NCBI GenBank assembly: GCA_011049425.1
Contig: DSBM01000116.1
Coordinates: 1-32,065, forward strand
Source of the DNA: Candidatus Aminicenantes bacterium
Lineage (GTDB): Bacteria; Acidobacteriota; Aminicenantia; UBA2199
DNA: 32,065 nt
Direction of reading: 5' to 3'
Shown here in pieces: positions 224-29,010 of the stretch. The notes beneath the pieces are model-generated. The model had not been told where the DNA came from, ran no database searches, and saw only the letters and a list, made by a program, of their open reading frames with translations. The position numbers and the translations under genes are program-made. Position 1 is the stretch's first letter. Each line of letters begins with the position of its first letter.

Positions 224-330
224 CATCACAGCGCTTATAAGTGCATCATCACAGTTCGGACAGGCCTTCTGAGCTGAACTGCCTGGCCGGTTTCCTCATC
301 ACTAACGCTCCTTAGTGCCATCACAAGGTT
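224..330. repeat. CATCAC-headed palindrome array (divergent copy)
   Basis: CATCAC occurs at 224, 247, 297 and 319, giving spacings of 23, 50 and 22 bp. The segments between heads are small inverted repeats: CTTATAAG, CAGTTC...GAACTG, and CACTAA-CGCTCC-TTAGTG. The 50-bp segment is close to two units. It belongs to the same family as the array at 489-580 but has different palindromes. Confidence 0.6.
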
Positions 331-379
331 TTGTCTGTTTCCTTTCGACTTTCAACTTAGGCTTCTGCCACTGGCCACT

Positions 380-580
380 CGCCAAGTGCCCTTTTTGGTC
401 CTTGTAGAACGTAGAAAGTAGAAAACCGCGCACTACGCGAGGATTTTTTATTCGTTCTCTTATTCGTTATTCGGAATTCCTTGATTTTCATCACAGACCC
501 GAAAGATTCCTCATCACCAGGGCGCTTCGCGCCTCATCACAAAAGCTCGTGAGTTCTCATCACAAGCGCGAGTTGAAAAG
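380..580. repeat. Intergenic module B, copy 1, with 23-bp CATCAC array
   Basis: First of three related modules; the others are at 20057-20260 and 28831-29010. The order is: block CCAAGTGCCCTTTTTGGTCC, a GTAGAA-rich stretch, TTATTCGTT direct repeats, then CATCAC heads at 489, 512, 535 and 558, exactly 23 bp apart. Between heads lie short palindromes such as GGCGC-TTC-GCGCC and CTCGTGAG. No plausible reading frame. The remainder of 1-679 is similar low-complexity text (GTTGARAAG, GGTGACAGG, CAGGAGACAG). Confidence 0.8.
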
Positions 581-5985: not shown

Positions 5986-6116
5986 ACGTTTGCGTTCGCT
6001 TATGCTTTATGCCCTGCGGGTATGTATGCCCTCTGGGTATGTATGCCCTCTGGGCACTCATCCCCACAACCGCTAGCCAATCATCAATGTGTGCTTCCCC
6101 ACACGAAACGTTAGAG
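5986..6116. repeat. Intergenic repeat A, copy 2, with a 17-bp tandem duplication
   Basis: Second copy of the repeat at 1-120. GGGTATGTATGCCCTCT is present twice in tandem at 6018-6034 and 6035-6051, but only once in copy 1. The element fills the convergent gap between the helical-protein gene and the minus-strand PP-loop gene. Remaining bases of 5883-6121 hold nothing else recognised. Confidence 0.75.
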
Positions 6117-6121
6117 ATCTT

Positions 6122-7012
6122 TTACTTTTCATTTCCCACTGGACTGCGCCGGGCCAGTATCTCATCCAGGTCGAGGCCGCGATCCTGGAAGTAGGCGGGA
6201 AAAAAATCCCGGCGCACACGATCCAGGCGGGGAGTAATGAAATCCAGAACCCTTTTCTCTGACGTGTCTTCCCGTACATGGAAGATATTGCGTTTCCAGT
6301 GGGCCAGCCAACCGGAGAGGCAGATCGGCTGAAAGCGTCGGTAGTAGCGTGGATTGAACAGGTTGAGTGGGGATTTGGGGCGTTTGACGTCGAGACTGTT
6401 CCAGTCAATGTGAAAGCCCTGTTCCAGCAGAAGCCGGCGTCGCTCTTGTCTTGAGTTCAATTCGTAAACCGGTGAAAAATAGCGGACCTGGAAATCGCGC
6501 GCGAAATCGTGAATCAATTGCAGGTATCCGGGATAATTGTCGGCGGTAACCAGGATGGTTTCCCTGCCCGGGGCCTGTTCCCAGTTGGCGCCGTCGGTAA
6601 AAGCCGGAATGCCGTGCTCCAGGGCGTAGAGCACACAGGAAAGCGCCATGGATGCGCGGCAGGGGATGCACCAGGCGATCTCGTTGCCGTACTCACGGGC
6701 GTTGCGCCGCAGGCCTTTCATCGCCATTTCGCGGAAGAGGGGCCGGATATCGACGATTTCAAAGGTCACGCGTTCCGGCCCCAGCAATTCTTCCAGGCGC
6801 CGAACGTTGGGGCGGCTGAAGTTCAACCCGCAGTGGAGATAACCTTTGTCAAACGTCAGCAGGTGGATGCGCTTGTATTGCTTGGCCAGGAACAGCGCCG
6901 TGTAAAGCGAGTCGATTCCCCCGGAAAATTGGACGATGACTTCTTCGGAACGCATCCGCGGCGCTTTCTTTGCCGGATTGTTCATTGCCATCAGAGTGGA
7001 CGCTGGACCCAT
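6122..7012 (-). CDS. PP-loop (N-type ATP pyrophosphatase) family protein
   Basis: Protein of up to 296 residues with the PP-loop signature SGGIDS at residues 30-35, which binds ATP for adenylation of a substrate in the ExsB/QueC/TilS-like superfamily. CIPC at 115-118 and further cysteines at 61 and 126 could bind metal or act in sulfur transfer. C-terminal regions rich in Arg and aromatics are not recognised. The substrate is unknown: it is not a clear TilS, QueC, ThiI or MnmA. The start is unclear. ATG codons at residues 1, 8, 10 and 20 are all possible and none has a good ribosome-binding site; residue 20 is still upstream of the motif. It is a single gene on the minus strand between two plus-strand units. 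Confidence 0.7.
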   Translation of the reverse strand: MGPASTLMAMNNPAKKAPRMRSEEVIVQFSGGIDSLYTALFLAKQYKRIHLLTFDKGYLHCGLNFSRPNVRRLEELLGPERVTFEIVDIRPLFREMAMKGLRRNAREYGNEIAWCIPCRASMALSCVLYALEHGIPAFTDGANWEQAPGRETILVTADNYPGYLQLIHDFARDFQVRYFSPVYELNSRQERRRLLLEQGFHIDWNSLDVKRPKSPLNLFNPRYYRRFQPICLSGWLAHWKRNIFHVREDTSEKRVLDFITPRLDRVRRDFFPAYFQDRGLDLDEILARRSPVGNEK

Positions 7013-18267: not shown

Positions 18268-19923
18268 ATGACGCGCATTGTTGAGTGTGTGCCCAATTTT
18301 TCCGAAGGCAGGGACAAGGCGATTATTGATCGCATCACGGCTGAGATCTGTACGGTCGACGATGTGGAGTTGCTGGATGTGGATCCGGGCAAGGATACGA
18401 ACCGGACCGTGGTGACTTTTGCGGGTTCGCCGGAAAAGATCGGCGAAGCGGCATTCCGCGCCATCCGCAAGGCGGCCGAATTGATTGACATGTCCAGGCA
18501 CAGCGGCGCGCACGCGCGCCTGGGAGCCACGGACGTATGTCCATTCGTACCGGTAGCCGGGGTTACCATGGAGGATTGTGTACAGATATCCCGCCAGGTC
18601 GGTAAACGTGTGGCCGAAGAGTTAAAGATTCCCGTGTACCTGTATGCCGAAGCGGCGACCCGCCCGGAGCGACGGCGCCTGCCCGATATCCGGCGCGGCG
18701 AATATGAAGCCCTGCCGGAAAAACTGAAGCAGAAAAATTTCCAGCCCGATTTCGGCGCGGCCGAATTCAATCCCCGTTCCGGGGCCACGGTAATTGGTGC
18801 CCGCGACTTTCTGATTGCCTACAACGTTAATCTCAATACGCGTAGCGTGAAACTGGCCAATAAAATCGCCAAGCGAGTGCGGGAAAAGGGCTACAAGGCA
18901 AAAAACCCGCAAACCGGGAAAAGGGAAACCGTGCCCGGAACGCTCAAAGGCGTGCAGGGAATCGGCTGGTATATCGATGAGTACAACATGGCCCAGGTTT
19001 CCGTCAATATTCTCAATTTTCATGAGGCCCCTTTGTACCGGGTATTTGAGGAGTGCGACCGCTTCGGGCGTGAGTTCGGCGTGCGCGTGACGGGCAGCGA
19101 ATTGGTGGGGTTGATTCCATTGCAAGCCATGGTGGAAAGCGGACGCCACTTCCTTTCTCGACAAGGGGTCTCTACCGGGGTTTCCGAAAATGAACTGGTG
19201 CGCGTGGCTGTACAAAGCCTGGGCCTGGATGAACTCGCCCCTTTTGATGTAGAAAAGCGCATCATTGAATACCGTTTTCAGCGCAAGGGGCGGTTGGCGT
19301 CAATGGACACTTATGCGTTTACCGAGGAGTTGGCGTCTGATTCCCCGGCTCCCGGGGGCGGCAGCGTGTCCGCTCTCATGGGGTCACTTTCCGCGGGGTT
19401 GAGTACCATGGTGGCCAACTTGACCAGCGGCAAACGCAAGTTTAAAGAGGTGAAAGAAGAGATGATCGTTTTGGCGGAGAAAGGTCAGGAACTGGTCGCC
19501 TTTTTTAATGATGCCATTGATCGTGATACCGAGGCCTTTAACCGCATTATGGATGCCCTGTCTATGCCCAAAGGATCGGATGAAGAGGCTGCTCTCAGGC
19601 AGCAGGCCCTGGATGAAGCCACCCGCGGGGCCGTATGTGTACCACTCGGTGTGTTGGAGAAGGCCGTAGATGCCGCCGGTTTGGCGGTTGAGGCCGCGGC
19701 GAAAGGCAACCCGAATTCATTGTCCGATGCCGGAGTGGCCGGGCTGGCCGCCGCAACCTGCGCCCGCGGGGCCTGGTACAACGTGCGCATCAACCTTGAG
19801 GGATTCGAGGACCGTGAATTTGCCGCGGAAACGGTAAAACAAGCCGACCAGTGGATGGCCCGGGTGGACAAGACGGCTGCCCGTATTCGTGAAATCATGG
19901 ATGAAGCTTTTAAACAGAGTTGA
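18268..19923 (+). CDS. ftcD: Bifunctional glutamate formimidoyltransferase / formimidoyltetrahydrofolate cyclodeaminase
   Basis: Fusion of 551 residues. It transfers the formimino group from N-formiminoglutamate (histidine breakdown) to tetrahydrofolate and then releases ammonia to form 5,10-methenyl-THF. Residues 1-330 form the transferase: MTRIVECVPNFSEGRDKAII start, SRHSGAHARLGATDVCPFVP, and GIGWYIDEYNMAQVSVN. Residues 350-551 are the cyclodeaminase: FTEELASDSPAPGGGSVSAL. The fusion is the same arrangement as in animals and some bacteria. GGAGG precedes the ATG. There are no hut genes in the window. It follows trmD closely and may be read from the ffh promoter. The stop codon lies inside an 8-bp tandem repeat. 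Confidence 0.94.
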   Translation: MTRIVECVPNFSEGRDKAIIDRITAEICTVDDVELLDVDPGKDTNRTVVTFAGSPEKIGEAAFRAIRKAAELIDMSRHSGAHARLGATDVCPFVPVAGVTMEDCVQISRQVGKRVAEELKIPVYLYAEAATRPERRRLPDIRRGEYEALPEKLKQKNFQPDFGAAEFNPRSGATVIGARDFLIAYNVNLNTRSVKLANKIAKRVREKGYKAKNPQTGKRETVPGTLKGVQGIGWYIDEYNMAQVSVNILNFHEAPLYRVFEECDRFGREFGVRVTGSELVGLIPLQAMVESGRHFLSRQGVSTGVSENELVRVAVQSLGLDELAPFDVEKRIIEYRFQRKGRLASMDTYAFTEELASDSPAPGGGSVSALMGSLSAGLSTMVANLTSGKRKFKEVKEEMIVLAEKGQELVAFFNDAIDRDTEAFNRIMDALSMPKGSDEEAALRQQALDEATRGAVCVPLGVLEKAVDAAGLAVEAAAKGNPNSLSDAGVAGLAAATCARGAWYNVRINLEGFEDREFAAETVKQADQWMARVDKTAARIREIMDEAFKQS

Positions 19924-19974
19924 AAAGTTGGGAAGTTGGAGAGTTGGAAAGTTGGAGAGGAAAGAAGTTGAAAA
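19919..19974. repeat. Octamer tandem repeat GTTGGARA overlapping the ftcD stop
   Basis: Units at 19919, 19927, 19935, 19943 and 19951, each 8 bp (GTTGAAAA, GTTGGGAA, GTTGGAGA, GTTGGAAA, GTTGGAGA), then GGAAAGAA and GTTGAAAA. The first unit contains the ftcD stop codon. Shorter versions occur near 28763 and 573. Confidence 0.7.
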
Positions 19975-20013
19975 AAGGTGGCAGGGAGACAGGTGACAGG
20001 AAAACAGCGGTAG

Positions 20014-20033
20014 GGGCGGTTCGTGAACCGCCC
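20014..20033. repeat. Perfect palindrome GGGCGGTTC-GT-GAACCGCCC
   Basis: Nine-bp stem with a 2-nt loop in the convergent ftcD/J-domain gap. Palindromes of this GGGGCGGTTCG...AACCGCCC kind are scattered in many bacterial genomes. It could also act as a bidirectional terminator, though no T-run follows. Confidence 0.6.
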
Positions 20034-20056
20034 GTACGCCCGTTGCCTCTTGCCCC

Positions 20057-20260
20057 TGGCCAAGTGCCCTTTTTGGTCCTTGCAGAAAGTAGAAGGTAGA
20101 AAAAAAACGTGAGAGGCTTTTTTCATTCGTTCTTCCTTATTCGTTATTCAGAGCCTGGTTTTTCTCTATCACAGAACCCGGAAGTTCCCTCATCACCAGG
20201 GCGCTTTGCGCCTCATCACAACCACTCGTGAGTTCTCATCACAAGAACGAGTTGAAGAGA
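20057..20260. repeat. Intergenic module B, copy 2, with CATCAC array
   Basis: Same order as copy 1: GGCCAAGTGCCCTTTTTGGTCC, AGTAGAAGGTAGAA, TTATTCGTT, then heads at 20167 (TATCAC), 20191, 20214 and 20237 (spacings 24, 23, 23). Palindromes between heads: GAAC-CCGGAA-GTTC, GGCGC-TTT-GCGCC, ACTC-GT-GAGT. The stems match copy 1 even where loop bases differ. Confidence 0.8.
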
Positions 20261-20286
20261 AGATTACAGGTAGCAGGAGACAATAA

Positions 20287-21714
20287 CTACTTCTTTTTTC
20301 CGAAAAGTGATCGTTTGCCTTTGGCGCCACCGTTCAGATCTTCCAGGCGCTTGCGCGCGATTTTGTGATCCGGGTTGATGGAAAGGGCTTTGCGGAAGAA
20401 TCCCTCTGCCCGGTTGACCAGTTGCTCTTCCTGGAAAAGCAGACCCAGGCCGGCAATCGCGTCGGCGTTCCAGGGGTCGAGTTCCACGGCGCGTTTCAGG
20501 TTGCGTTCCGCCGACCTTCTCAATGAGCTGATGTGAACCTGGGCCATTCCCAGCAACATGAAGTAGGCTGATTTGTCGTTATCCAGTTTCACCGCTTCAT
20601 CCATCAGGGTGGCGGCTTCCCAGAAGCGATGTCGCGAGTAGAGGGTTTTGGCCTTTTGGTAGAGCATGCGAGCCCGCTCCCTCAGGTTGCTCTGGGTTCG
20701 GCCTTGCGATTCATCCTCTTCCGTTTCTCCGGTATCGTATGCCCGTCGCCGCTGGGGGTCATTCAAAATGTCAAAGGCCTTATTGACGGCGGAAAAAACA
20801 AAGTTGGCCTTTTCGCGGATTCCCGGATCCGGGGCGTTTCCGAGGCGGTCCGGATGCAATTGCTTGGCCAGTCGGAAATAAGCACTTTTTATTTCATCCT
20901 CATTCGCGGTGTCTTTCAAACCAAGTATATCGTAATGACTGGCGTTTCCGCTGTTGATCCGATTAAAGAGAGCCAGCATGTTCTCGATGTTGTGATCGAT
21001 TTCCTTGTCCGCGTGACTGACTTCACTGAACCCGAGACCATTGATCAGGTAGAGATGGACCAAATGGGTCCAGGTTATGTCCTCCGTACATTTCAGGTGC
21101 AAGTGGAATGTACCGCAGGCGATGCCGGTCAATTTTGGCAATTGCTCATAGAGGGTGCGGGTTTCGGAACCCAAAGAAGCCAGCAATTCCGGGTCCAGGG
21201 AAAATCGACTGGCCGTCTGGTCGTAATAGCGGTTGCGAAAATAGGCGAGATTGGCCATGCGTGACATGCCCATGGCAATGATACGGGGAATGGGAATGCC
21301 CAGCCGGGAATCTTCGGGAATCTCCGGTAGTTCAGGAGAAAATTCCCATGTCCCTGAGTTAAGTGAAAGCGCGCCGACCGCGATTGCAGCTGCCTGGTGA
21401 GCCAGTGCGAGTGCCAGGGTTTGGGAATCCAGGATTCGCGCATGAATCAGCACTTGTCCCAGTCGATCCTTGCGACCCTCCATCATTTTGTGCAGGCTCC
21501 AGAACTGGGTCTGATTGATCTTTCCCAGTTTGTAAAGGATTTCACCCAGTCTTTCCTGGATCACCGTAGTGCGGGCGAACTCAAGGCGGCCCCGGCGGAA
21601 ATAAAGGGCTTTGGTGAAATGAGCGTCCTGGATCTGCACCACGCCGTCCAGACGTTCAACGTGAATGCGGCGGTACAATTCGGCCACAGGTTTCTCAATA
21701 ACTCGATTGGGCAT
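20287..21714 (-). CDS. PATAN (DUF4388)-J-domain-TPR protein
   Basis: Protein of 475 residues with three parts. Residues 1-155 match the PATAN/DUF4388 domain (LDGVVQIQ ... ALYFRRGRLEFARTT ... LGEILYKLGKI), found in signalling and gliding-type proteins. Residues 259-328 are a J-domain with HPD at 287-289 (QLHPDRLG), the motif that stimulates Hsp70 ATPase. Residues 343-465 contain TPR-like helices (WEAATLMDEAVKLDNDKS, ALSINPDH), and the tail is Lys-rich. No Gly/Phe or zinc region, so it is not DnaJ itself. It probably recruits DnaK to a specific partner. The ATG at 21714 is preferred over a TTG one codon upstream; GGGATGG is nearby. A weak minus-strand promoter (TTGACA, 21802-21797) lies upstream. 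Confidence 0.85.
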   Translation of the reverse strand: MPNRVIEKPVAELYRRIHVERLDGVVQIQDAHFTKALYFRRGRLEFARTTVIQERLGEILYKLGKINQTQFWSLHKMMEGRKDRLGQVLIHARILDSQTLALALAHQAAAIAVGALSLNSGTWEFSPELPEIPEDSRLGIPIPRIIAMGMSRMANLAYFRNRYYDQTASRFSLDPELLASLGSETRTLYEQLPKLTGIACGTFHLHLKCTEDITWTHLVHLYLINGLGFSEVSHADKEIDHNIENMLALFNRINSGNASHYDILGLKDTANEDEIKSAYFRLAKQLHPDRLGNAPDPGIREKANFVFSAVNKAFDILNDPQRRRAYDTGETEEDESQGRTQSNLRERARMLYQKAKTLYSRHRFWEAATLMDEAVKLDNDKSAYFMLLGMAQVHISSLRRSAERNLKRAVELDPWNADAIAGLGLLFQEEQLVNRAEGFFRKALSINPDHKIARKRLEDLNGGAKGKRSLFGKKK

Positions 21715-28725: not shown

Positions 28726-28830
28726 CCGTGGTGAACAAAGGAATACCTTTGACCACTACGGAGTTGGAGAGTTGAAAAGAAGGTGACAGGTATCAGGCGG
28801 CAGGTGACAGGAAGGCAGGAGACAGTCCCC

Positions 28831-29010
28831 TGGCCAAGTACCCTTTTTGGTCCTTGTAGAAAGCAGAAGGTAGAATGTAGAAAAAAACGGAGAGGATTTT
28901 TTTATTCGTTCCTCCCTATTCGTTATTCAGAATGTCTTGATTTTCATCACAGAACCCGGAAGTTCCTTCACCACCAGAACGCTTTGCGCCCCATCACAAG
29001 AATCAGTTAA
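28831..29010. repeat. Intergenic module B, copy 3, with CATCAC array
   Basis: Same block order as copies 1 and 2: TGGCCAAGTACCCTTTTTGG, GTAGAAAGCAGAAGGTAGAA, TTATTCGTT, then heads at 28945 (CATCAC), 28969 (CACCAC) and 28992 (CATCAC), spacings 24 and 23. The CTCGTGAG palindrome unit is missing, so the array is one unit shorter. Upstream, 28762-28824 carries the GTTGGAGA and GGTGACAGG blocks. No ORF is credible in 28726-29170. Confidence 0.75.

Follow-up and report, generated by a model that had tools for sequence, protein, structure and literature searches.

Arrays of the window and their anatomy

The window, a whole contig of 32,065 nucleotides, is one of the 171 contigs of a metagenome-assembled genome of 2.62 Mb (G000). 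Its intergenic DNA carries arrays in which the six-base head CATCAC recurs on one strand at short intervals (Table 1). Same-strand CATCAC pairs 22-24 bp apart occurred seven times in the window compared to a mean of 0.03 and a maximum of 1 in 200 second-order Markov windows, which confirmed the arrays as real. Two elements were told apart; type B, with heads separated by spacers of 17 or 18 nt, and type A, which includes a longer, well-paired hairpin. The general form of type B was TTTT-CATCAC-(17/18)-CATCAC-(17)-CATCAC-(17)-CATCAC, followed in many copies by AAGNACGAG, and that of type A was CATCAC-(17)-CATCAC-(39-48)-CATCAC-(16)-CATCAC with the hairpin as the long spacer. The first type A and type B arrays of the window were in the same orientation with 164 bp between them.

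Table 1. Array features and preceding repeat blocks in the window.
Feature	Position	Strand	Description
Type A array	224..324	+	CATCAC-(17 nt, AGCGCTTATAAGTGCAT)-CATCAC-(44-nt hairpin)-CATCAC-(16 nt)-CATCAC; covariance-model score 123.7 bits
Type A long hairpin	253..296	+	TTCGG a CAGGC ... GCCTG g CCGG; consensus fold; best-supported structured part
Block preceding type B	366..488	+	CCAAGTGCCCTTTTTGGTCCTTG ... ATTCGTTATTCGG ... TTGATTTT; repeat families D2, D8
Type B array	489..563	+	CATCAC four times at exact 23-bp intervals; three spacers of 17 nt
Same block, second copy	20044..20166	+	D2, D7
Type B array	20167..20242	+	TATCAC, then three CATCAC; spacing 24, 23, 23
Same block, third copy	28818..28944	+	D2, D7, D8
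Type B array, shorter	28945..28997	+	CATCAC, CACCAC (28969), CATCAC; one spacer arm lost

The first-pass annotation of this DNA had described a 23-bp period, and the heads at 489, 512, 535 and 558 were indeed CATCAC and spaced as it had read them. For the heads at 224, 247, 297 and 319, which it had called nearly so, the outer intervals were 23 and 22 bp but the middle gap was 50 bp and held the hairpin. The recurrences it had reported at 20167 and 28945 exist with the spacings given, although one head in each (20167 and 28969) departs from CATCAC.

Type A and type B were also found joined as inverted, back-to-back pairs at six loci in two genomes, four in the window genome (C21, C53, C107 and C12) and two (C79 and C49) in G001, the genome of a congeneric sister species (Candidatus Aminicenantes bacterium Zod_Metabat.571, JAFGNX). 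The clean centre of this fused form was GTGATG-AAAACC-CATCAC. The arrangement of these pairs resembles that of REPINs, in which two tagged units are inverted; most arrays had a single orientation. One fused array (L202:5895-6072 and 6168-6533) was located about 100 bp past the 3' end of an RNase P RNA gene (RF00010).

The block preceding the type B array at 489 had the same order before the arrays at 20167 and 28945 and before arrays on C154 and C107. The surrounding intergenic DNA (120-190, 330-480, 19918-20290 and 28762-28930) was pieced together from degenerate repeats of 7 nt (TTTCGAC/TTTCAAC, GGTGACA/GGTATCA, GTAGAAA and TCGCCAA), and relatives contain runs such as AATGACC. A repeat of about 120 nt at 1-125 and 5986-6119 had some 30 more copies in the genome and probably breaks the assembly, since many copies lie at contig ends. 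In addition, a palindrome at 20015-20032 (GGCGGTTCGTGAACCGCC) follows GTAG and resembles a GTAG-type REP; the near-palindrome gave 52 forward and 50 reverse matches in the genome at two mismatches or fewer, and hence roughly 50 sites.

Genomic distribution and spread

The first-pass annotation had proposed a genome-wide intergenic search, and the arrays proved to be dispersed beyond the window, with 68 matches to CATCACN{15,19}CATCAC and none to the reversed pattern. No array with at least three heads overlapped a called gene, and three or four of the 68 two-head matches fell in long coding-like frames, roughly the number expected by chance (estimated at about 1.6). Of the 25 array loci with both neighbours called, 14 stood between genes of the same direction, 8 between convergent genes and 3 between divergent ones, a bias also reported for REPs (PMC3733652). 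Arrays lay in either orientation to genes and at no fixed distance; about half were just 3' of a stop codon, and arrays on the strand of the nearest gene and on the opposite strand were near 50:50.

Among the 119 genomes searched, CATCAC arrays were confined to that of the window and that of a single sister species, and among 60 relatives arrays with at least three heads were found in this sister species of the same genus alone. The type A covariance model matched at 17 places in the genome of the window and at 13 in G001, while the remaining 117 genomes gave no match in a search whose filters were stricter because of the number of genomes; several of the weaker places were type B arrays. A scan of named genomes for the pattern gave 51 stretches, six of them contigs of JAFGNX, and the others, single matches or small groups in unrelated taxa, are expected to be mostly chance or coding. 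Viral contigs gave four pattern matches, and the phage records searched held no DNA similar to the arrays. The Rfam search of the window and the fused loci gave no family match except the RNase P RNA beside one fused locus, and arrays of this kind were not found in the literature searched.

Units that occupy equivalent positions in separate arrays were 60% alike compared to 50% for units within one array, which showed that arrays are copied as blocks, and the upstream repeats travel with type B. Slippage of single units was thereby rejected for type B. Comparison with the sister genome covered the second and third type B arrays of the window, as the sister contig starts inside the gene after the first arrays. 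Both arrays (20167 and 28945) were absent from the matching G001 gaps, the one matching 28945 being a short, array-free spacer. Absence in G001 may reflect deletion because intergenic DNA turns over wholesale, and neither target duplication nor precise excision was seen. Other arrays were common to both genomes (C34/C83, C49/C131 and C30/C91). Those of C34/C83 and C49/C131 were 99-100% identical, while C30/C91 and C154/C39 showed strong differences, including a module swap in which GGGCGGTTCGCGAACCGCCC, a different palindrome, stands in G001 C39 at the place of the second spacer of C154. The same G001 C39 array (L204) lies at a synteny break, with one side matching G000 C107 and the other C154 (L255, L267), which could mean that the array was the site of a rearrangement or that the assembly joined two pieces there.

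Several other readings were rejected. The gaps between two arrays that might have held an autonomous element, 1.2 kb between type A copies on G001 C184 and 1.4 kb on C127, contained ordinary genes. A 2.85-kb difference between G001 C79 and G000 C63 was not taken as an insertion; G000 seems instead to have lost DNA, because the segment includes an alcohol dehydrogenase whose end survives there. Finally, mini-ORFs running from the ATG of one GTGATG head to a TGA in the next fit a 23-bp but not a 24-bp period and were judged a coincidence.

Spacer structure and AATGAC relatives

The element is dispersed, purely intergenic and more frequent than chance, with nearly invariant heads beside variable spacers, and in these respects the first-pass annotation was supported. 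The annotation had further held that palindrome arms are kept while loops change, as if structure matters. The pair GGCGC-TTC-GCGCC and GGCGC-TTT-GCGCC is real, but these copies are paralogous (88% identity over 86 bp), and in a third copy in the window (AGAACGCTTTGCGCC) most of one arm is gone. Dyad symmetry of the CATCAC spacers exceeded that of shuffles with z 9.8 for all spacers and z 6.8 after removal of near-duplicates. The type A hairpin was nearly invariant in close copies and kept its pairing with different bases in diverged copies (C127, C90, C53 and sister C36 and C184), such as ATCGGaCGGAGC..GCTCCGgCCGAT on C127 and CGGCCAGGC..GCCTGGCCG in the sister genome. For type B, a spacer on C47 (ATGGGTGC-TTTT-GCACCCC) had changed arms with the pairing kept, but RNAalifold returned no consensus pair, neither strand of the spacers folded more stably than shuffles (z -1.8 and -0.7) and compensatory change was limited, with a small covariation of opposite positions that varied with the centre chosen. 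G-U compared to A-C mismatches had no strand bias that would mark an RNA strand. Many spacers formed poor or imperfect hairpins. Overall, structure matters for type A, and for type B the case is weak; the constant feature is the tag and its spacing, and palindromic spacers are frequent but not general.

Both the window's own genus and other genera of its family had arrays of the same kind with the head AATGAC (GTCATT on the other strand). Reversed-pattern controls were at zero or near zero in most, and some of the matches, mainly in g7, were plain heptamer repeats. Tandem and back-to-back forms both occurred in other genera; g3, g8 and g9 had AATGAC arrays, and the back-to-back divergent topology of g3 and g8 (G003, G014) was like that of the CATCAC arrays. 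The two heads have four of six bases in common. A profile of CATCAC spacers scored AATGAC spacers above shuffles in g3 (z 7.6) and g9 (z 4.0) and, on two units alone, in g8 (z 2.4), with no excess for g7 spacers or for the GC-rich ones dominant in the window's genus. One such pair is AATGAC-AAGCACCGTGAATTCTT-AATGAC in G003 and CATCAC-AAGCACTCGTGAGTTCT-CATCAC. Common descent with a change of tag is inferred, and the profile test is suggestive of it rather than proof, because the spacers share compositional edges. Dyad symmetry was not in excess in g3 and g9 spacers (z 1.1) and was in g7 (z 5.3), where the array spacing was 21 bp. Two G018 contigs, C139 and C145 (L321, L322), carried up to seven consecutive exact GTCATT heads 21 bp apart. 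The palindromes between them (TCCCTTGAGGG) were almost the same, local duplication appears to have expanded these arrays, and some heads had changed to GTGATT.

Relation to known repeats and interpretation

The arrays are not CRISPRs, as the repeat is only 6 nt long, spacers recur between loci and the neighbours in the window are housekeeping genes. BOX elements are likewise modular intergenic repeats assembled from different subunits, a likeness of architecture. The statement of the first-pass annotation that no named element has this layout was too strong, as the arrays come closest to REP elements, above all to those tagged CGTC (PMC3733652). The arrays are extragenic, dispersed and multi-copy. 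REPs have units of 20-40 bp with a palindromic stem; the arrays have units of 22-25 bp with significant dyad symmetry and a good hairpin in type A, but type B spacers showed no folding excess over shuffles and little covariation.

CGTC-tagged REPs, which include Neisseria dRS3 and Rickettsia RPE-4/RPE-6, likewise have no linked transposase, and Aminicenantes are not among the phyla listed for them (PMC3733652). Both these REPs and the CATCAC arrays are short tagged extragenic palindromes that form inverted dimers without a dedicated transposase, and the other strand of the AATGAC arrays, GTCATT, approximates a CGTC/TGTC tag followed by AT. The CATCAC arrays differ in their CATCAC/GTGATG tag, in spacers that are diverse and often weakly palindromic, and in their predominant head-to-tail order, in which one shared tag recurs at 22-24 bp; this order is reported as absent or rare in most REP families (PMC3733652). 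The likeness to GTAG-tagged REPs and REPINs with their RAYTs (PMC3116915, PMC3733652) lies in tagged, extragenic, multi-copy palindromes and in the inverted pairs. However, neither of the terminal tags of the REP super-families, GTAG or CGTC (PMC3733652), was present in the arrays, and none of the three Y1 transposase (Y1_Tnp) genes in the genome was flanked by CATCAC arrays, so a RAYT link was rejected. One of the three (L194:237-1228, contig C25) lies between unrelated 35-bp inverted repeats of its own that are 97% identical, and so resembles tyrosine transposases of Acidobacteria that have been described with flanking TIRs (PMC3733652). The TAACTGA sets of Beggiatoaceae and cyanobacteria (PMC4679880) are also small sets of a short intergenic tag, but there the direct repeat is a heptamer and most sets sit immediately before a start codon, while the arrays alternate a six-base tag with longer spacers and showed no start-codon position.

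On balance, the arrays are probably non-autonomous, REP-like extragenic repeats; they are called REP-like and not members of a named REP family because they have neither the tag nor the linked transposase of such families. The unit is the tag with a spacer of 16-19 nt, often a small palindrome, and three or four units head to tail make an array. In the fused form the heads of opposite arms, on either side of the centre, can pair. A protein may recognise the tag, perhaps in its single-stranded form, much as REPs are recognised by RAYT transposases. Whole arrays would move from one intergenic site to another through copying or recombination, and slippage of single units would not be the route.

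The nearly invariant heads, variable spacers and regular spacing of 22-24 bp are also what would be expected if a protein bound the heads cooperatively on double-stranded DNA, shaping the chromosome or regulating neighbouring genes, with the spacers serving as distance. The g3 and g9 AATGAC spacers, which hold their spacing without a dyad excess, fit such binding, as do the two orthologous arrays at 99-100% identity next to coding DNA, 150-600 bp away, at about 83-89%. At those two loci, however, the flanking intergenic DNA is equally conserved, and two other shared arrays are conserved no better than their surroundings. Nor is 23 bp a whole number of turns; the earlier suggestion of two helical turns did not hold, as about 21 bp would be expected and CATCAC arrays have 22-25 (the g7 arrays have 21). 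With orientation and distance to genes not fixed and arrays present or absent between sister species, we regard double-stranded binding as unlikely.

Decay offers another account, in which the arrays are inert fossils of old repeats, spread by recombination among intergenic modules and lacking a dedicated protein or function. Their travel with other repeat blocks, the swapped module of G001 C39 and the many imperfect spacers agree with it, but intact heads beside drifting spacers are unexpected under neutral decay and similar arrays with a consistent tag persist in several genera, which makes it distinctly unlikely. A transcribed element, either a 3' untranslated element or a small RNA made of hairpins, which in the fused form would be paired on the sides of a stem, appears improbable. 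Three fused elements did fold better than shuffles with the heads of the two arms paired (z -3.7, -5.5 and -5.5), the type A hairpin is retained in diverged copies and about half of the arrays directly follow a stop codon. A fourth fused copy was no better than shuffles (z -1.3), though, and head pairing is not independent evidence because any inverted repeat pairs. The even strand distribution and the lack of an Rfam match also speak against it, and for type B the tests of fold energy, consensus structure, covarying pairs and strand bias in G-U pairs gave an RNA reading little support.

The AATGAC relatives allow a further and rather doubtful proposal. Aminicenantes would carry a family-wide system of tandem tagged repeats whose tag switched between genera, from AATGAC to CATCAC, on both inverted arms at once, implying that a putative tag-recognising protein changed its specificity alongside. 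The fused form, a paired-tag stem with side hairpins, would then be a multi-junction single-strand substrate undescribed for REPs.

REP-type repeats are common, and the means by which they spread when no transposase is linked to them is described as an open question for the CGTC repeats (PMC3733652). The CATCAC arrays look like an unusual tandem form of REP-type extragenic repeats with a tag that differs between related genera, and head-to-tail tagged arrays can thus be the main form in a lineage. A lineage with similar arrays and genus-specific tags is a natural experiment, in which a protein that changes with the tag would be a candidate recogniser.
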